From contig CALCCA010000143.1 in NCBI GenBank assembly GCA_937899725.1, positions 1-35,781 on the forward strand: DNA of 35,781 nucleotides. Reading direction: 5' to 3'. This document shows, one piece after another, positions 2,283 to 19,067 of this stretch. Made by a program: the position numbers and the translations under genes. The DNA comes from an uncultured Halomicronema sp. Lineage in GTDB: Bacteria > Cyanobacteriota > Cyanobacteriia > Phormidesmidales > Phormidesmidaceae. The notes beneath the pieces were generated by a model that ran no database searches, was not told the origin of the DNA, and saw nothing but the letters and a program-made list of their open reading frames with translations. Position 1 is the first letter of the stretch. Every line of letters begins with the position of its first letter.

Positions 2283-3053
2283 ATGGAAGTTATTCCCGCC
2301 ATTGACCTATTAGCGGGTCACTGTGTTCGCCTTTATCAGGGCGACTATGAACAATCGCAGGTCTTTGATGAAAATCCCGTTGAGGTCGCGCAGCGGTGGG
2401 CCGCCGCCGGAGCGACGCGCTTGCACCTGGTCGATTTAGATGGGGCCAAGGCGGGCCAGCCCGAAAATTGGCAGGCGATCGCGGCCATTGCCGCTGCCGT
2501 CAACGTGCCGATTGAAGTGGGGGGCGGGCTGCGCGATCGAGATCGGGTAGCGGCCCTGTTCGACCTGGGGGTGCAGTACGCCATTCTGGGCACCGCCGCC
2601 GTCGAGAAGCCTGATCTAGTCAGTACTCTCAGCGCCGAATTCCCCGGACAAATAATCGTGGGGATCGATGCCCGCGATGGCAAAGTTGCCACCCGCGGCT
2701 GGCTTGAAACCTCGGCAATCGAGGCGATCGCCCTGGCTCAAGACATGGCACAACGAGGTGCTGCCGCCATTATCTATACCGACATCAACCGCGATGGCAC
2801 CCTTAAAGGCCCCAACCTAGAAGCCCTGCGGGCGATCACTGAGGCCACGACGGTCCCTGTCATTGCCTCCGGCGGCGTCAGCTCCGTCACCGACTTGCTC
2901 AGCCTGCTGACATTAGAGAGACTTGGGGTCAACGGCATCATTGTCGGCAAAGCCTTGTACACCGGCGATATCAGCCTGAAAGAAGCGCTCCGCGCTGTCG
3001 GCCCTGGTCGCTGGCAAGATGTGCCCACCGATATCGGCCCTTCCTTTGCCTAA
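2283..3053 (+). CDS. hisA: Phosphoribosylformimino-5-aminoimidazole carboxamide ribotide isomerase (HisA)
   Basis: Cytosolic TIM-barrel enzyme of histidine synthesis. It catalyses the Amadori isomerisation of ProFAR to PRFAR, the substrate of HisF-HisH. The 256-residue length is typical. Seen in order: N-terminal [20 protein letters not shown] with the catalytic Asp at residue 8, the first phosphate-binding half [18 protein letters not shown], the second half [16 protein letters not shown] with the second catalytic Asp, [14 protein letters not shown], and the second phosphate loop ASGGV followed by GIIVGKALY. The ATG at 2283 is chosen because HisA families begin at MEVIPAID; the frame continues 5' but only to a TTG. 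It stands alone among unrelated genes, as his genes usually do in cyanobacteria. A perfect hairpin at 3229-3271 follows. Confidence 0.96.
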
Positions 3054-3700: not shown

Positions 3701-4412
3701 AAGAAACCGTTGAACCTCTTTAAATCTGTTCACGGATGGCGTTTCAACAGGTCGATTCTAGCGTGGGACGGCCAGGGCATCTGATACTTACTAGCGCTTT
3801 AGCCCCTGAACAGAGGCTCTTTTTAGCAGGGCAACTGACTCAGTCATTCGATGGCACGGATCTAGCAGCGAGCGAATCCACTTGGCAGCCAGTTGAAATA
3901 GCGGCCAGCCCTGATCCACAAATTATGATTATTGATGTATCGAGATTTTATTTATAAGTTCTCGATAGGGCCAGACAGCTTCAAGCCCGCTAATTGCAAT
4001 CAAGGAATAATCCTTGAGCAAGAAGGCTTTCAGCCGACGAAAGAAAATTGAACTATCAGCAAAATAGTACATTTAAACTATGAATTTCATCTTGTTTCAA
4101 TGAATGATCACTGATTTTTTCGGGCTTACGGTGGTAACCAAATTGTTTATGCGGCTACAATCATGTGAGGCAAGTCACAACTCGCAGTTTGAAGTTGGCT
4201 TGCTAACACACGCTAAAGGTTTTTTGGATAGCTAGAATCAATTCTGATCGTTTTTTGGTGAATGGTCGCCACTGTTGCCTTGGTAATTTAGGTTGTCTAA
4301 CGTACATTTTTTGAGACATCCTGCCCTGAGGTCGCAGAAAAAACGAAATGCTAAGCTGAACAAACCCTTGATTTTGAAAGCATCACGCACGAAGGAGCAC
4401 GAGGAACGCGGC
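3701..4412. other. 712-base gene-poor leader region upstream of rpoD
   Basis: A 73-codon open frame at 3736-3957 has no homology I recognise and is probably chance. The rest is AT-rich. It contains a small dyad CAAGGA-ATAA-TCCTTG (4001-4016) and a -10-like TACAAT (4156-4161), without a convincing -35 at the right distance. A long regulated rpoD leader would fit, but no promoter can be fixed by eye. Confidence 0.4.
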
Positions 4413-6772: not shown

Positions 6773-7255
6773 TCACTCTTCGATCGGGGCATAGAAAGTG
6801 CCTTCGACTTCGACGATGTCGTCTTGATTGAGGCGATCGACCTCGACAATGGTGCGGGGCGGATAGGGGCCATCGCCCCAAAGTTCTTCCTGAATTTGGT
6901 TCACGACTGGACGGTAGCGATACATGTCCGTCACGTACACCACCAGTCGTACCGCATCCTGCAGGGTCGCCCCTTCTGACTCGGCGATGAGCTGCATGTT
7001 CATAAACGCCTGTCGGACCCGACCTTCCGTATCGGGCACCAGGGTATTGGTTTCGGGATCAATGCCGCGCATCCCCGCAACGAAAACAAAGTCTCCCGCT
7101 CGCGTACCCAGGCTCCAGGTCGCAGTGGGCACGATGCCGCCTTCGGGCGTCAGGGTGACAACGCCGTTGGGCGAGACATGATCATCAGCCGCGAGTGGAG
7201 TTGCCGCCACGGCCCAACCAGCGATCGCCAGGGTCGAAAAAACAATCGATTTCAT
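6773..7255 (-). CDS. RidA/YjgF/YER057c-family protein with a signal peptide
   Basis: 160 residues from the ATG at 7255, chosen because it begins a clear signal peptide (MKSIVFSTLAIAGWAVAATPLAA, cleavage probably near ADD). Two ATG codons at about 7270 would add five or six residues. The mature part is a chorismate-mutase-like RidA fold: FVFVAGMRGIDPETNTLVP, VRQAFMNMQLIAESEGATLQDAVRLVVYVTDM, then PYPPRTIVEVDRLNQDDIVEVEGTFY. The Arg of PPRT and the Glu near the end match the residues that bind the carboxylate and water in RidA enamine/imine deaminases. RidA proteins normally work in the cytosol on 2-aminoacrylate, so an exported form likely has another substrate. It is transcribed away from the tspO-like gene. 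Confidence 0.85.
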   Translation of the reverse strand: MKSIVFSTLAIAGWAVAATPLAADDHVSPNGVVTLTPEGGIVPTATWSLGTRAGDFVFVAGMRGIDPETNTLVPDTEGRVRQAFMNMQLIAESEGATLQDAVRLVVYVTDMYRYRPVVNQIQEELWGDGPYPPRTIVEVDRLNQDDIVEVEGTFYAPIEE

Positions 7256-7485
7256 GAAGTTAAGTTCCATCACACCAAGGGGAGTGTAGGCAGTTGTCAG
7301 AGCCTTCTATGTATCCCTGGATGCTTTTTAGTTGGCCAACCGGCAAGCAACTCGCTTCACGCACTCGTTGGAGAGCCGCATTCCCCCAAACTGACATCCC
7401 CTGCACTCCGAACCCCGTCACGTTGAATGCTCAGACGTTCAATCAAACAGGTGCTGCCATCCACTTTCCCCCCCCCAGGTAAAAG

Positions 7486-7509
7486 ACCTCGATGGCTAAA
7501 GATCGAGGT
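7486..7509. repeat. 8-bp perfect inverted repeat 60 bases upstream of the tspO-like gene
   Basis: ACCTCGAT (7486-7493) and ATCGAGGT (7502-7509) flank an eight-base spacer, just after a run of eight or nine C. No T-run follows on either strand, so an operator or leader hairpin is more likely than a terminator. Confidence 0.4.
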
Positions 7510-7568
7510 AAAGTTGTCATACCGCGAGCGTTTCATTCGATCATTGTCAATCACCATTTTTAGCGCTG

Positions 7569-8300
7569 ATGGATAACAACAATCTGGTCAAAAGCGGAGT
7601 GAATGCCGTGATGGGGGTGAAAGCCGCCCGCGATACGACCGTTCCAACGGATCTGGAAAATCCCCAATGGGATCAGACCGCCACGCTGCAATATGTGGGA
7701 GCCACAATCGCCCAAACTGCTGCGATGACAGGGCTACTCTGGCTTATGGATGTCGTGTTAAGTCGCGTTAATACAGCCGCCTTACCGCCTTGGGCATTGA
7801 CGGCGATCGTCTGTGCGTTTTTTGCCTTTGTCACCTTGCGTTCTCGCTTCTTTTCGCTGTTAGACAATACGCGTAGCAATGGTCGTTACCAATCGATTCA
7901 ACGCCCCGGCTGGGCACCGCCGCCGCTGGCCTTTCCCATTGTGTGGATGAGCATTGCGGTGTTGCGGGTGGTGTCGGCCTATTTAATCTGGTCGGCCTGT
8001 GGTCAAAGCTTTTTGTGCCTGCCCTTGGTTCTTTTTGTAGGGCATCTCAGCCTAGGCGATACCTGGAATACGATTTTTACGGTGGAAGGACGTTTGGGGG
8101 CCGCTGTCCCCGTGGTGATCATCGGGCCGATGCTCTCGGTGATCGTCGTGACGATCGCTTACTTTCAGACTTTGCCACTGGCCGGTTGGATCATCTTGCT
8201 GTCTGCCGTGTGGCTGGCGATCGCCACTGCGTTGTGTATCAGCCTTTGGCAACTCAACGGTCAGGAACCGCTGTATCCAGTACGATCGAAGGCGAGCTAA
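7569..8300 (+). CDS. TspO/MBR (tryptophan-rich sensory protein) family membrane protein
   Basis: 243 residues, longer than the roughly 160 of bacterial TspO because of an N-terminal extension of about 100 residues with hydrophobic segments (YVGATIAQTAAMTGLLWLM, LPPWALTAIVCAFFAFVTL). The core follows TspO order: RPGWAPPPLAFPIVWMSIAVL (the W-x-P-P...F-x-x-V-W signature), a second helix ending in YLIWSACG, then LSLGDTWNTIFTVEGRLGAAV (the position of the N-x-x-W-x-x-x-F motif), a helix VVIIGPMLSVIVVTIAYF, and a final helix ending in SLWQLN as in the family. TspO proteins bind tetrapyrroles and sterol-like ligands and in cyanobacteria link to stress responses. The 3' end (8217-8300) is repeated at 9017-9100 beyond the next gene. 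No partner genes are adjacent. Confidence 0.8.
   Translation: MDNNNLVKSGVNAVMGVKAARDTTVPTDLENPQWDQTATLQYVGATIAQTAAMTGLLWLMDVVLSRVNTAALPPWALTAIVCAFFAFVTLRSRFFSLLDNTRSNGRYQSIQRPGWAPPPLAFPIVWMSIAVLRVVSAYLIWSACGQSFLCLPLVLFVGHLSLGDTWNTIFTVEGRLGAAVPVVIIGPMLSVIVVTIAYFQTLPLAGWIILLSAVWLAIATALCISLWQLNGQEPLYPVRSKAS
8217..8300 (+). repeat. Direct repeat copy A (3' end of the tspO-like gene)
   Basis: This 84-base segment matches 9017-9100 at 72 of 84 positions without a gap by my alignment. It encodes the last helix and C-terminal tail of the TspO-like protein, including the stop codon. Confidence 0.9.
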
Positions 8301-8438
8301 CACACCACAAAGTTAGTGTTTGTATGCGTGCCGTCTCGAACATGTTGGAGAATCAAGGAACGTACAATTGCTCAATAGAAGGAAGAAATGCGAACAGTAC
8401 AATGGAGACAATGCGCTCTCCCCTGATTGGCCAATGCC

Positions 8439-8990
8439 ATGATTGCTGTTCCTCACTACATCAGCCCTGAACAATATCTCGACCTGGAAGGTCAGAGCCC
8501 GATTCGCCATGAATATCGGCGCGGCTTAGTCTATGCCATGGCTGGCGGCACTGACAATCATGATCGGATTGCGCTGAACCTGCTCACTCTGGTCAATTTA
8601 CATCTGGGTAATTCAGAATGCCGATTTCATTCTGGGAATGTCAAAGTTAACTATCAAGATGAGTTTTATTATTACCCGGACGCTTTTGTAACCTGCGATC
8701 CTCGAGATCGAGGCGATCGCTACATTAAACGCCATCCCAAACTCATTGCCGAAGTCCTTTCCCCAAGTACCCAAGCCTTTGACCTAGACGAGAAATTTAA
8801 GGATTATCAACAACTGGATTCCCTAGAGGAGTATGTCCTGATTTTTCAGGAAAGTCAGCAGGTTGAATGCCGTCGCCGCACCGTCACGAATACTTGGGAA
8901 ACCACGACCTATACAGCAGGAGATCGGCTTTCTCTCAAAAGCATTGACCTGGAATTCGACATTTCTCAGCTATATCTCGGCATCGATTGA
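8439..8990 (+). CDS. Uma2 family (DUF820) restriction-endonuclease-fold protein
   Basis: 183 residues from the ATG at 8439; an in-frame TTG at 8427 would add four. Seen: ISPEQYLDLEGQSPIRHEYRRG at the N-terminus, AGGTDNHDRIALNLLTLV, then the PD-(D/E)xK-like core with YYPDAFVTCDPRD supplying Asp and KLIAEVLSPSTQAFD supplying the Glu-x-Leu that replaces E-x-K in many members, and DLDEKFKDYQQLDSLEEYVLI. The family is hugely expanded in cyanobacteria and its role is poorly known; a nuclease fold is clear, activity is not. The gene lies exactly between two copies of the tspO 3' end, which suggests that it arrived by a recombination event there. Confidence 0.88.
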   Translation: MIAVPHYISPEQYLDLEGQSPIRHEYRRGLVYAMAGGTDNHDRIALNLLTLVNLHLGNSECRFHSGNVKVNYQDEFYYYPDAFVTCDPRDRGDRYIKRHPKLIAEVLSPSTQAFDLDEKFKDYQQLDSLEEYVLIFQESQQVECRRRTVTNTWETTTYTAGDRLSLKSIDLEFDISQLYLGID

Positions 8991-9016
8991 AGCTGCGATC
9001 TCCCTCAACGCCTATC

Positions 9017-9100
9017 GAGATCGCCACTGCATTGTGTATCAGTCTCTGGCAACTCAATGATCACGAACCGCTGTATCCGGTGCGATCGAAGAAAAGCTAA
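9017..9100 (+). pseudogene. Detached, diverged second copy of the tspO 3' end (repeat copy B)
   Basis: Matches 8217-8300 at 72 of 84 bases. Translated in the matching frame it gives IATALCISLWQLN, then EPLYPVRS, and a stop. Five of the twelve differences are third-base silent changes and the frame is intact. This copy therefore looks like it was once under protein-level selection, as part of another tspO allele or paralogue, before losing its 5' part. Only the last 28 codons remain. Confidence 0.8.
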
Positions 9101-9126
9101 TGAATCATGCTAGGAGAAAACGCCAG

Positions 9127-10821
9127 TTACGCTCCTATAATCGACCTCAGCTTTGTTTTAAGTGCATCAATCAGCGATGTGCCTTTCGCTACTTTATCTG
9201 TTCCACCCAACTCTTTATAAAGATCATAGACAATTGCTATTGAATCCATCACTAAATCATCACTCAAATCATTTTCACTAAGTTGTGAAATTGATTTATT
9301 TTGAGGATACAAATTCTTAAGTGATCGGCATACTACCACATACAAAACATAAAATTTTATGTCAGTAATTTCTGACGCAGAAAAACGCTTGCAATTCTTG
9401 ATCTTCTCTTCTATCTTTCTCCCCCAGAAAGATACTAAATAATATGTTTTTAAGTTATTATTCTTATGAAATAGCTTGTTATATGATTGATCATCTTCCA
9501 ACAAGGTTGACGGCCTAGCCCTAGCATAATCAGGTTTTTGCAAGAGAACTGACATTAGACATTGAGATATGAATGGAATGCTAATAATCTCTTTAGGCTT
9601 TCTTCCTTCATTTTTGTAAAAATTTTTCCGCCTATCATAGAACAGATTTCTCGGCTTCAAGTAATCTTCGATTTGCCGGTGAACTTGATCTGTAGCTCTC
9701 AGTGAAGCTTTTGGAATTGGAGTTTGACTGTTAGTAGCTCTAATGATTCGATCTCTAGTTTCCTCGCTTTCAGGCACTATTACTCTGACTAGGATATCTC
9801 TTTTTTCACTATCTATCTTCTCTCGGTTTTTTGAGAAATAGCGGAATATCTCAGAAGATGTCTGTAGACCATTGACAATTTCAGGACTCACAATTATCAG
9901 CTCTTTTCCTCCAGGAGCAGAGGCTTCGCTTGCGAGAATAGTTACTCCATTATTGAGCCACCAAAACTCCTCAGAGCTTGGCTTTTCCAAGGTTTCCTGA
10001 ATCTCATTGTTGACATTTGTTTTTCCTTGGTAATCGCGAACATTTGATTCAAAAATATGTTTAACTAGTTTCCCTTCTGCATTAGTTATGAATTTAAAGT
10101 ATTCAGCCAGATTAGCAAGAGCTATAAAAACTTGTCCAGAAGTAGACAGGGGACTTTCAGACAATTTCAATCTAAAAACATCATTTACTCTTTCCTGAGT
10201 AAGCTTTACAAGTTCTTCAGCTCCAACAAAAGCGATATTAACTGATGCATTAGGAAGCTTGTCTTTGATATCCTTCTCAAGATCTTCTGCTTGCCGATTA
10301 ACGTTTGGGTGAATGTGGGAACCTTTGGATACGTAAAAAACAGTGATTTTGAGTTTAGGTCTTTTTGTTATCAATCCCACATAAGTTTCTTTAAAGTTTT
10401 CGAAAGAGGATAAAATTTTATCGTTGTAACGTCCTTCAAAATCTGAACGTTCAAAATCCAGATCGAATAAGTTCCTGCACAATCTAGATAGTTTTAACAA
10501 AGGTTCTTCCGAGAATGAGTTCTCAAATTTCGATTGAATTAGAATAAACTCAATATCAACATTTTTCTTGTATTTATCTTTAAATATTTCATTCTCTTTT
10601 ACTAAATCACCATTGACAAATAGATAAACTGCATCAGCACCACCATCATGGCTCTCGCCTGCCATTCCTGAGTATACTTCTTCATAGCTAAGTTCAAAAT
10701 CCTTGAGGACTTGCAAGGCAGAATAGAACTCAAAAAATCTGCTTAGTGATATATCTTCTTCAAGGTTATCATGTTCTTGTTTAACGATTTCTTCAAGCAA
10801 TATCTGGTTATTTCTTGACAT
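9127..10821 (-). CDS. AIPR family protein (abortive-infection phage resistance)
   Basis: 564 residues, within the family's usual range. Seen: an N-terminal nuclease-like region with DGGADAVYLF (Asp 63) and IEFILIQSKFE (Gln-x-Lys at 96-98), fitting a PD-(D/E)xK arrangement; then the AIPR core NVRDYQGKTNVNNEI (about 260-274), FWWLNNGVTILA (286-297) and PEIVNGLQTSSEI (313-325). A conserved tail of the core follows (IRATNSQTPI, DYLKPRNLFYDRRKNFY). AIPR proteins were defined from plasmid abortive-infection systems and are thought to act against phage, probably on nucleic acid. The gene is clearly more AT-rich than its neighbours and contains no HIP1 site, suggesting horizontal origin. It is flanked by two Uma2 genes. 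No partner methylase or toxin gene is adjacent, so it may act alone. Confidence 0.9.
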   Translation of the reverse strand: MSRNNQILLEEIVKQEHDNLEEDISLSRFFEFYSALQVLKDFELSYEEVYSGMAGESHDGGADAVYLFVNGDLVKENEIFKDKYKKNVDIEFILIQSKFENSFSEEPLLKLSRLCRNLFDLDFERSDFEGRYNDKILSSFENFKETYVGLITKRPKLKITVFYVSKGSHIHPNVNRQAEDLEKDIKDKLPNASVNIAFVGAEELVKLTQERVNDVFRLKLSESPLSTSGQVFIALANLAEYFKFITNAEGKLVKHIFESNVRDYQGKTNVNNEIQETLEKPSSEEFWWLNNGVTILASEASAPGGKELIIVSPEIVNGLQTSSEIFRYFSKNREKIDSEKRDILVRVIVPESEETRDRIIRATNSQTPIPKASLRATDQVHRQIEDYLKPRNLFYDRRKNFYKNEGRKPKEIISIPFISQCLMSVLLQKPDYARARPSTLLEDDQSYNKLFHKNNNLKTYYLVSFWGRKIEEKIKNCKRFSASEITDIKFYVLYVVVCRSLKNLYPQNKSISQLSENDLSDDLVMDSIAIVYDLYKELGGTDKVAKGTSLIDALKTKLRSIIGA

Positions 10822-11175
10822 GGAAAGCTGTTTTTGTTTTATACTTCTAGAGTAAATTTTCTGTATATCCTTCTAGGATATTTCTCGATAAATTCTTGCC
10901 TTGAATACACTTCAAACGCAATCATATTTTTGTTTAAGTCTATTGTAAGCGATGTTGAAATCTACTTTTATTCTCGATCATCTATGTAGAATATTGCTTC
11001 GTTTAGAGAATTAATCGACTGTGTCTTCTCAAATCCCTTTTTTATTCGAAAATCTCTCCTTCTCCCCGTCGACTCTTTCCTAAATAGGCGGAATGAGTTG
11101 TATCTTGAAACTTTTCATATATGGACACCCAAGAAAATAGACTATCGGCGACCTCTACTATGATTCTGCCATCGG
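10822..11175. other. 354-base AT-rich intergenic region with a dyad ahead of the AIPR gene
   Basis: Contains ATATCC-TTCTA-GGATAT (10865-10881), a 6-bp perfect dyad about 45 bases upstream of the AIPR start. A TATAAA-like element lies between the two on the minus strand. This is compatible with an operator and promoter. No convincing gene is seen here; composition matches the AIPR gene up to about 11,000. Confidence 0.4.
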
Positions 11176-11742
11176 CTAATTTAGCTCAAATCCTAGCAAA
11201 ACATCCTCGCCCGACAACTGTGCTGGAAAATCAATTTTCTCTACCTTGCTGTCGGTTCGATAGATCTCTACCTGCTCATCCTGCAGATTGATCAACCATC
11301 CTAATCGCAATCCACTGGCTCGATATTCCTGCATCTTTTCTTGCAGCGGCGCTAGCGAATCGGTTTTAGACCGCAGCTCAATCACAAAATCAGGACAGAG
11401 AGGAACGAATCCCGACTTTTGTTCTGCTGTTAGGGCATTCCAGCGAGATAGCTCAACCCAGGCAGCATCTGGCGAGCGATCGCCCCCTTGAGGCAGCTTA
11501 AACAGCGTCGAAGAACTAAATACTTTGCCCAGCCGGGTTTGATGATTCCAAAGCCAAAGCAAGCTAATCAGACCCGCTTCCCGTTCTCCACTTTCACCGC
11601 CAACAGGCGACATAATAATCAACGCCCCCGCCGCTGATCGTTCCAACGGCATGTCTGGATTTGCCTGACAGAGCTGATAAAACTGCTCATCCGTCAGGTT
11701 GACTTGATCTAAGCTCAACATCAATGGCAAACCCGTAGTCAT
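11176..11742 (-). CDS. Uma2 family (DUF820) restriction-endonuclease-fold protein
   Basis: 188 residues. Seen: LTDEQFYQLCQANPDMPLERSAAG, a Gly-rich loop PVGGESGEREAGLISLLWLW, the first acidic motif RSPDAAWVELSRW, and PLCPDFVIELRSKTDSLAPLQEKMQEY, where Glu occupies the catalytic position, with Arg-Ser-Lys after it. The C-terminus GLRLGWLINLQDEQVEIYR is typical of this subgroup. It belongs to a different Uma2 branch from the gene at 8439, so the two are not a recent duplication. The biochemical role is unknown. Base composition is like the host's, with a HIP1 site inside, in contrast to the AIPR gene beside it. Confidence 0.9.
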   Translation of the reverse strand: MTTGLPLMLSLDQVNLTDEQFYQLCQANPDMPLERSAAGALIIMSPVGGESGEREAGLISLLWLWNHQTRLGKVFSSSTLFKLPQGGDRSPDAAWVELSRWNALTAEQKSGFVPLCPDFVIELRSKTDSLAPLQEKMQEYRASGLRLGWLINLQDEQVEIYRTDSKVEKIDFPAQLSGEDVLLGFELN

Positions 11743-11948
11743 GCCCTATCCCTTGTTGCTGTGACTAAATATCTTAAATACTCGATTCCCAGTGATTGAT
11801 TCGGTATTTCCCAAACTTAACTGATCCTAAAACAGCTAATCAGCAGCGTCATCAGATAACGGCGACAGCTCGCCTGCGATTTCCCGACGCCGCTAAGCGA
11901 TTGTGATTTTCAACCAAGTGAGAACAATACCCACACCGCGTTCCATGA

Positions 11949-12380
11949 TCATTCCCCATTATTCTGATTTGCGACAGCCTCCCAGCCCTCTTCAGCCGAC
12001 CAGATGATCGTGCTGTCCGATCGCTCCAAACACGAAATCGATGAGTTGATCAGTTCTCGCGGGTGACGTGGCATTTCGATATGAGAAAGCACGTTCTCCT
12101 GATCGGCAAAAACGATTATGTAAACATCATCTCGCTGCTCGATGCCAGTTTCGCCTTCCGCATCCCAATCGAACCCGAACTGGGCGATCGCGGACTCATT
12201 CGTCGAGTAGGGGGCCAGCACACAGAGGCGCTCCCAATCAGAGGAACCGATGTCAGCAAGATCGATCGTTTCAACAGACGACTCTAACTGATCTGTGAGG
12301 GTGTCACGAGTCTGCGTTGCCGTACTATTGCATCCGGCCAGCAAGCTGACGAAGGCCAAAATCACGAATCGCTTCTGCAT
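11949..12380 (-). CDS. Small putative lipoprotein
   Basis: 143 residues with a short signal (MQKRFVILAFVSLLAGC); the lipobox LAGC puts the lipidated Cys at 17. The mature part begins with a Thr/Ser-rich stretch, then DIGSSDWERLCVLAPYSTNESAIAQFGFDWD, YIIVFADQENVLSHIEMPRH and a C-terminal ISCLERSDSTIIW. The WxxLCVLAPY...VIVFxD layout recurs in small bacterial lipoproteins of unknown function. Three Cys remain in the precursor, two of them possibly paired after export. No operon partner; the permease upstream at 12572 points the same way, 190 bases off. Confidence 0.75.
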   Translation of the reverse strand: MQKRFVILAFVSLLAGCNSTATQTRDTLTDQLESSVETIDLADIGSSDWERLCVLAPYSTNESAIAQFGFDWDAEGETGIEQRDDVYIIVFADQENVLSHIEMPRHPRELINSSISCLERSDSTIIWSAEEGWEAVANQNNGE

Positions 12381-18900: not shown

Positions 18901-19067
18901 TCATTCGCTGCTCTGACTGGATTATTGATTTAGGCCCTGAAGGCGGCGATCGCGGCGGTGAGATTATCGCCACGGGCACCCCTGAACAGGTAGCGCGAAA
19001 TCCCAATTCCTATACGGGCCGCTATTTGGCGCGGGTCTTGGCGCAGCATGCAAACGATCAGGCGTGA
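15987..19067 (+). CDS. uvrA: Excinuclease ABC subunit A (UvrA)
   Basis: 1026 residues, longer than the usual 940-980. It is the damage-recognition ATPase of nucleotide excision repair, acting as a dimer with UvrB. Seen: Walker [11 protein letters not shown] (61-70), a zinc site starting CPHCGRS, second-module cysteines CPHCHGLG and [12 protein letters not shown] signature [11 protein letters not shown] (567 on) with Walker [14 protein letters not shown], second Walker [11 protein letters not shown] (719 on), the C-terminal zinc finger CEACSGQG...[10 protein letters not shown], and second signature [11 protein letters not shown] (908 on) with [11 protein letters not shown]. The His usual after TTGL is Ser, as I recall for cyanobacterial UvrA. 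The extra length comes from a 30-residue polar N-terminus and a low-complexity insert at about 267-312 (RPAQSENK...TDTEPVADA). Confidence 0.97.

Follow-up and report, generated by a model that had tools for sequence, protein, structure and literature searches.

The locus described here raises the question of how a Uma2 gene came to stand between two copies of the end of another gene, and what such an arrangement tells about the movement of small accessory genes. It lies in a stretch of 35,781 nucleotides (the window) from the genome of an uncultured Halomicronema sp. (G000). The tspO gene (TspO/MBR, 7569..8300, plus strand) is intact, its match to the profile PF03073 (E 9.8e-19) spanning 7569-8297. 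Its last 84 bases, still on the gene (8217..8300, copy 1), recur in direct orientation at 9017..9100 (copy 2), with a spacing of 800, and in both copies, which read on the plus strand, the last base is the end of the stop codon. The copies are identical at 72 of 84 bases, as the first-pass annotation had it, and the 82-base core of the repeat is found by blastn with E ~1e-20 to 1e-22; the match is far beyond chance. Copy 2 translates as EIATALCISLWQLNDHEPLYPVRSKKS followed by a stop, thus retaining the tspO frame and TAA, also as first described, and the readings that the second segment is tspO and that the arrangement is the footprint of a gene insertion both hold. The number of silent differences, given earlier as five of twelve, is six (8231, 8243, 8246, 8258, 8279, 8282), the other six being non-silent. 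Among the codons altered are Gly15, which is Gly in all 23 intact genes compared, and Gln16, which is Gln in 21 of the 23. These changes at conserved codons fit a functionless relic, that is, a displaced and decaying tspO 3' end, and are a poor fit to a donor tspO allele kept under selection, although decay after arrival is possible.

The cargo between the copies is a Uma2 gene (8427..8990, plus strand; PF05685, E 4.7e-34), whose likely start is the ATG at 8439. The profile match covers 8427-8987 with 117.8 bits against a cut-off of 27, and the gene also matches the PADLOC candidate PDC-S03 (E 1.7e-26); it is the sole convincing ORF there, in agreement with the first reading. Between tspO and Uma2 lies a spacer (8301..8426, plus strand), and between the Uma2 stop and copy 2 a junction (8991..9018, plus strand), upstream of which tspO similarity does not resume. 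The HIP1 octamer GCGATCGC stands at 8217..8224, the 5' edge of the repeated stretch, at offset -2 from the start of the 82-base repeat. No integrase was found between the copies or, up to position 19067, in the 14 ORFs of the window that were tested. A classical transposon or IS at tspO was rejected, as no transposase is encoded at 8301-9016 and the inverted repeats seen nearby are weak and do not delimit Uma2. A dispersed short repeat is likewise ruled out, as there is no third copy of the tspO tail among the 216 contigs of the genome (next best match E 0.13); a search of plasmids with the tail copy gave no match. The tail matched 17 of 59 genomes (own included) at E <=0.0012, and among these 17 only G000 has a copy outside a long open frame. 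A tandem tspO paralogue, which had been offered as the source of copy 2, is not borne out: there is one tspO at each of 25 loci and one long-frame match in each of the 17 genomes.

The age of the arrangement can be judged from the nearest relative, an uncultured Halomicronema MAG (G002), whose contig 612 (L032) was the only one of 25 tspO loci tested to share the neighbouring proteins of the window. Its TspO is 94% identical in amino acid sequence, and the order of genes is lysE, ridA, tspO, then a related spacer (partly common to both in the alignment), then the first 29 codons of Uma2, with 83% of residues identical to those of the window gene. Behind this piece the DNA is unrelated, and similarity returns at window position 11749. 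Since the same Uma2 start stands behind tspO in L032, the tspO-Uma2 junction is older than the split of the two lineages, and the entry of Uma2 that was first suggested cannot have been a fresh one. L032 has one tspO tail only, but the stretch it lacks covers the site where a second would be. Over the 84 bases copy 1 and copy 2 differ at 12 positions, copy 1 and L032 at 11, and copy 2 and L032 at 11; with copy 2 nearly equidistant from both tspO alleles, it would be either about as old as the split or derived from a third lineage. Derived states, read by eye from the codon table, are common to copy 2 and L032 in about three cases, to copy 1 and copy 2 in two, and to copy 1 and L032 in one. A phylogeny of the 84-base stretches, also proposed in the first-pass annotation, gave no resolution. 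A pre-insertion site was sought via ridA: close relatives of that gene are present in G005, G006, G008, G012 and G019, and no tspO is found in the stretch examined around them.

We consider it fairly probable that copy 2 is a tspO 3'-end remnant displaced by the insertion of an accessory segment, and that such tails then serve in cargo exchange. A small accessory segment would have been inserted at the end of tspO. On one side the homology of the gene 3' end would have been used, leaving tspO whole; on the other, an illegitimate joint would have formed inside the 3' end, in the case of tspO at the HIP1 octamer, with the last 84 bases doubled as the outcome. Afterwards RecA-type recombination could use the gene-tail repeats to excise cargo, to put it back and to exchange it from strain to strain. 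In this process tspO would be the two-copy case, and the array at an accessory cysS gene, described below, the many-copy case. The repeats, their identity as gene 3' ends, their recurrence, the interchangeable cysS cargos and the HIP1 excess are observed directly; we infer from them the recombination steps and their order, as well as which copy is native, the direction of events at tspO and how old they are. It counts against this account that the tspO locus is visible in two genomes only, G000 and G002, with no empty site or donor among them.

The DNA behind copy 2 bears on another, less probable origin of the second tail. An AT-rich segment (9101..11140, G+C ~0.35, right edge approximate) starts right after it, the fall in G+C being located near the copy 2 stop (0.47 in Uma2 against 0.35 in the next gene). 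That gene (9127..10821, minus strand; PF10592) belongs to the AIPR family and is, to judge by its profile matches, best described as an abortive infection gene of the AbiU type: the PADLOC AbiU profile matches residues 4-559 of 564 with 658.5 bits (E 2.7e-198), while NCBIfam gives a weak MzaE match only. Its product is 56% identical to that of a Serratia plasmid gene, in comparison with at most 36% (best score 118 bits) for the AIPR matches in 9 of 38 other genomes, and therefore the segment is probably foreign; at the DNA level the gene has no match in 58 other genomes. A second Uma2 gene of the variable region follows (11176..11742, minus strand; PF05685, E 3.4e-41), and then the right-hand flank common to G002/L032 (11749..12322, minus strand, 79%), which covers most of a lipoprotein-like ORF at 11949-12380. 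Copy 2 may have arrived with AbiU from a tspO-AbiU donor, through homology on the right and an illegitimate joint behind Uma2 on the left. The convergent AbiU gene lies 26 bases beyond copy 2, the G+C step coincides with the copy 2 stop, and copy 2 is about equally far from both known alleles, all as this would predict. We nevertheless think it unlikely, as no tspO-AbiU pair was found, the 58 genomes offering no AbiU DNA and only distant AIPR matches being seen, and as copy 2 alters codons conserved in intact genes, unless these decayed after arrival.

The arrangement seen at tspO is met again at other genes of the genome, which speaks for the insertion account. In G000 a direct repeat was found within 700 bases on either side of 5 of 54 Uma2 ORFs compared with 1 of 205 control ORFs (p 0.0017), the controls being similar-sized ORFs from 40 stretches picked by contig number and length, not randomly, and the 54 coming from 58 loci that cover 60 matches, with four loci left out whose ORF was not assignable. 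The names given to genes at these loci are from Pfam, the GNAT, ABC-ATPase and antitoxin readings being made by eye. The last 134 bases of cysS (also named by eye), up to the stop, are repeated after Uma2, and the second copy has an in-frame stop. Some 99 bases of a Peripla_BP_2 gene recur across a Uma2 gene on the opposite strand, and ~250 bases of an NMT1-like gene (L179) across Uma2, a GNAT-like ORF and a small ORF. In G005 (C1:6609440-6612636) the order of the Uma2 and GNAT-like genes between the NMT1-like gene and its 3'-end copy is the reverse of that in L179. At L144, a small ORF and a DUF3368 gene separate two copies of 92 bases from an ABC-ATPase-like gene, and Uma2 lies beyond; the single flanked control ORF (L242) again involves a small ORF and a DUF3368 gene. 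At two of the five flanked Uma2 loci (L185 and L199) no gene end could be recognised in the repeat. The L199 repeats, ~40 bases long (1205-1243 and 2102-2141), resemble what we take to be part of a tRNA-Phe gene; ARAGORN found no tRNA gene in them.

The association proved to be wider than Uma2. In 40 Uma2-centred stretches of G003 and G005, such repeats lay around 3 of 52 Uma2 ORFs and around 9 of 258 other ORFs (p 0.43), where two paralogue-type controls were left out, two of the nine control rows are one repeat pair, and the score and length limits differ slightly from those used for G000. Repeat flanking is therefore not Uma2-specific, and the idea of a Uma2-specific mobility is weakened. 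The first-pass annotation saw in the tspO locus direct evidence for how a Uma2 gene moved; the insertion footprint stands, and the restriction to Uma2 does not, since toxin-antitoxin-like, methyltransferase, zinc-uptake and other genes also lie between repeats of the same kind. The flanked non-Uma2 ORFs of G003 and G005 lie behind glmS-like (SIS, GATase), MmeI and transglutaminase genes. At L341 (G005, 2773-3045 and 4044-4317) a TMEM164-family ORF has on each side a copy of the glmS-like end and of the 126 bases that follow it. At L337 (G005, 7058-10696) there are three more copies of part of the 3' end of the transglutaminase gene with different ORFs between them, a second array like that of cysS. 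Direct-repeat arrays of four and three copies, ~120-180 bases long at spacings of 1-2 kb, occur at L342 and L352 (G005). By our own count at least 17 of 29 genomes contain copies, often several, of a ~170-base stretch at L186:2348-2535, which is probably a dispersed small repeat.

When 19 repeat-flanked cases were classified, one copy of the repeat lay at a gene 3' end in ten, at a 5' end in one and at neither in eight; among the ten, two are on short ORFs (L340, L344) and two (L179, L144) come from an unsystematic look at the Uma2 loci and not from the flank test. A scan of 758 kb of G000 (561 ORFs, window included) found seven 3'-end duplications, two of them not paralogous, and four 5'-end duplications, none paralogous; in 184 kb around Uma2 genes (155 ORFs) the figures were four (three not paralogous) and zero. 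As the 758-kb scan shows no 3'-end excess over 5' ends, it is among repeat-flanked inserts that 3' ends are preferred, and not among duplications in general.

The edges of the repeats carry a second regularity. The repeats of tspO, L242 and the glmS-like gene start inside GCGATCGC, and in none of the three is similarity taken up again further upstream. At the ABC-ATPase-like gene of L144 the repeat lies directly behind HIP1, at the MmeI gene HIP1 is at the repeat edge of the tail copy, and at L330, L329, L357 and L352 it is at the edge in at least one copy. It is not at the edge in five 3'-end cases (L198, L179, L340, L337, L219). A scan of 1.73 Mb gave 73 raw direct-repeat pairs, which merging and the dropping of repeats present at more than four places reduced to 52 low-copy pairs. 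HIP1 lay at an edge in 13 of the 52, where 5.9% was expected (p 7e-6); among the 13, two loci are counted twice, an intragenic repeat accounts for one pair, and in another the octamer is confined to one copy. Eleven have it at the low-coordinate edge and two at the other. HIP1 has been linked earlier to site-specific and illegitimate recombination in cyanobacteria, including HIP1-associated recombination (Robinson 1997 and Akiyama 1998, as cited in PMC4390886); the same source states that no evidence ties HIP1 to homologous recombination, and gene-tail duplications flanking accessory genes are not among the content of its accessible part. With such an excess at repeat edges, an octamer that is still a puzzle would be seen taking part in recombination.

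The strongest evidence for the gene-tail cargo pattern is the cysS array. With a C-terminal peptide of the accessory kind of cysS as query, 63 genomes of the order were searched. A distant class, 43-59% identical to the query, occurs once each in 56 of the 63; its open frame is never shorter than 230 codons, and no short second copy was seen, although a query of the accessory kind could miss badly decayed tails. The accessory kind is present in 19 genomes with 47 copies of its 3' end at 25 loci, 15 in frames of at least 250 codons and 32 others, several of the latter being short matches (34-80 bases) and one a copy cut by a contig end. Extra 3'-end copies, or tails, are found in 16 of the 19, G010 being counted by the copy cut at a contig end and a 79-base match only; G002, G011 and G020 have one copy each, and the contigs of G002 and G020 end ~1.0 and 0.4 kb behind it. 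Between and behind the copies are Uma2, methyltransferase, SelO, zinc-uptake and GmrSD-type genes, a PIN-type ORF and a transposase. Just behind Uma2 on contig 53 of G003 (L316) lie the N- and C-terminal parts of a broken integron-type integrase (TIGR02249; 3142-3387 and 3663-4220).

These cysS cargos are interchangeable. Uma2 stands ahead of the methyltransferase in G005 and behind it in G003, and the zinc-uptake genes come first in G006 and last in G005. By single linkage, what comes after the copies falls into six groups with at least two members, four of which mix long-frame and tail copies. For Uma2, the leader of the unit comes after the intact cysS in G000 and G005 but after a tail in G003; for the methyltransferase, it comes after the gene in G003 and G012 but after a tail in G005. 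Cargo thus shifts its place relative to the repeated cysS end, as is to be expected if gene ends recombine with each other. Uma2 is 88% identical between G000 and G008, in comparison with 76-77% between the cysS ends in view in G008, whose intact cysS lies outside the view, and the gene end of G000, a weak hint of transfer of the unit. A tree of 15 cysS ends gave no resolution (10 of 12 inner branches below 80). The starts of the tails vary within this one target gene, many of them being alignment edges. A HIP1 edge was considered for these tails and rejected: a short stretch, absent from 81 other loci searched, interrupts the similarity at HIP1, and many tails hence start at base 61, while a HIP1-containing 10-base match resumes upstream of the interruption.

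Integrase-type elements such as phage 21 and e14 are found in icd. By analogy, an element could have brought its own tspO 3' end and restored the gene, the native end becoming copy 2, and could later have shrunk to Uma2. The frame kept by copy 2 up to the stop codon, the broken integron-integrase pieces of the G003 cysS array and the tRNA-like fragments that in our own reading flank the L199 Uma2 (where ARAGORN finds no gene) would all suit such an origin. We regard it as quite improbable, given that integrase is absent from the space between the tspO copies and from the 14 ORFs tested, that many different genes serve as targets, and that a fixed crossover would give the cysS tails one start instead of several, even if many starts are alignment edges. 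The least probable account, a local tandem duplication of the tspO 3' end and Uma2 followed by deletion of the second Uma2, needs no foreign DNA and suits the direct orientation and spacing of the copies, but makes it a coincidence that copy 2 stops at the stop codon without the spacer seen behind copy 1 and the L032 tspO, and leaves the different cargos between cysS tails unexplained.

If the insertion account of copy 2 is extended to all these loci, a more speculative picture emerges, which we put forward tentatively. Filamentous cyanobacteria may possess integrase-free cassettes, with small accessory genes (Uma2, toxin-antitoxin, methyltransferase and others) as cargo, in which each unit ends in the last 80-250 bases of a host gene as its docking tail; HIP1 would be the joint at which new units form, and homologous recombination would shuffle the units among strains and genera while keeping the host gene whole. 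Uma2 genes are numerous, with 60 matches in G000 and 19 to 75 in five genomes of the genus. Gene-tail repeats and exchangeable cysS cargo provide a concrete and testable route by which small accessory genes may spread without a visible mobile element.

Several known systems resemble this one in part. Integron cassette arrays also consist of interchangeable cargos separated by a repeated element, whereas the repeat here is a piece of a host gene, and no intact integrase was found in the loci tested. Homology-facilitated illegitimate recombination, with one homologous and one illegitimate side, is known from laboratory transformation, and was reportedly described in natural transformation by de Vries and Wackernagel in 2002 and by others; the same two-sided scheme is proposed here from footprints only. 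Integrase-free hotspots with frequent homologous recombination (2017, PMC5635113) share with our loci the turnover of cargo by homology outside it and without recognisable mobile elements, but as presented in the accessible part of that work they involve double recombination at both flanking core genes, whereas here the 3' end of one gene is multiplied between cargos. Variable segments flanked by direct repeats are known from other bacteria, with repeats mostly below 30 bases according to section 10 of PMC2884548, and deletion-coupled insertions at identical positions are noted for Haloquadratum in the part of PMC3119063 available to us. Gene-tail arrays with exchangeable cargo and a HIP1 excess are new as far as we have seen; a search by titles and beginnings of abstracts, its coverage excluding most subscription journals, found no literature on arrays of gene 3'-end tails in cyanobacteria.

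The closest parallel is insertion with long target duplication, described for restriction-modification genes of Helicobacter pylori (Nobusato et al. 2000; Furuta et al. 2010; PMC3874152, PMC1643837). As far as the available parts of these sources go, there too the inserted genes are accessory, often for restriction or defence, the duplications are variable and ~100 bases long, and no known mobile element is involved. The insert at tspO has target-derived direct repeats of this order (84 bases), by which such insertions are recognised, and the repeats are of 134 bases at cysS and ~250 at the NMT1-like gene. Unlike in Helicobacter pylori, many copies here consist of a gene 3' end that runs as far as the stop codon, HIP1 marks the start of several, arrays with exchangeable cargo are built at one gene, and the host is a cyanobacterium. 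Taken most simply, the tspO locus would be an insertion at a gene 3' end, homologous on one side and illegitimate on the other, and thereby an instance of insertion with long target duplication.
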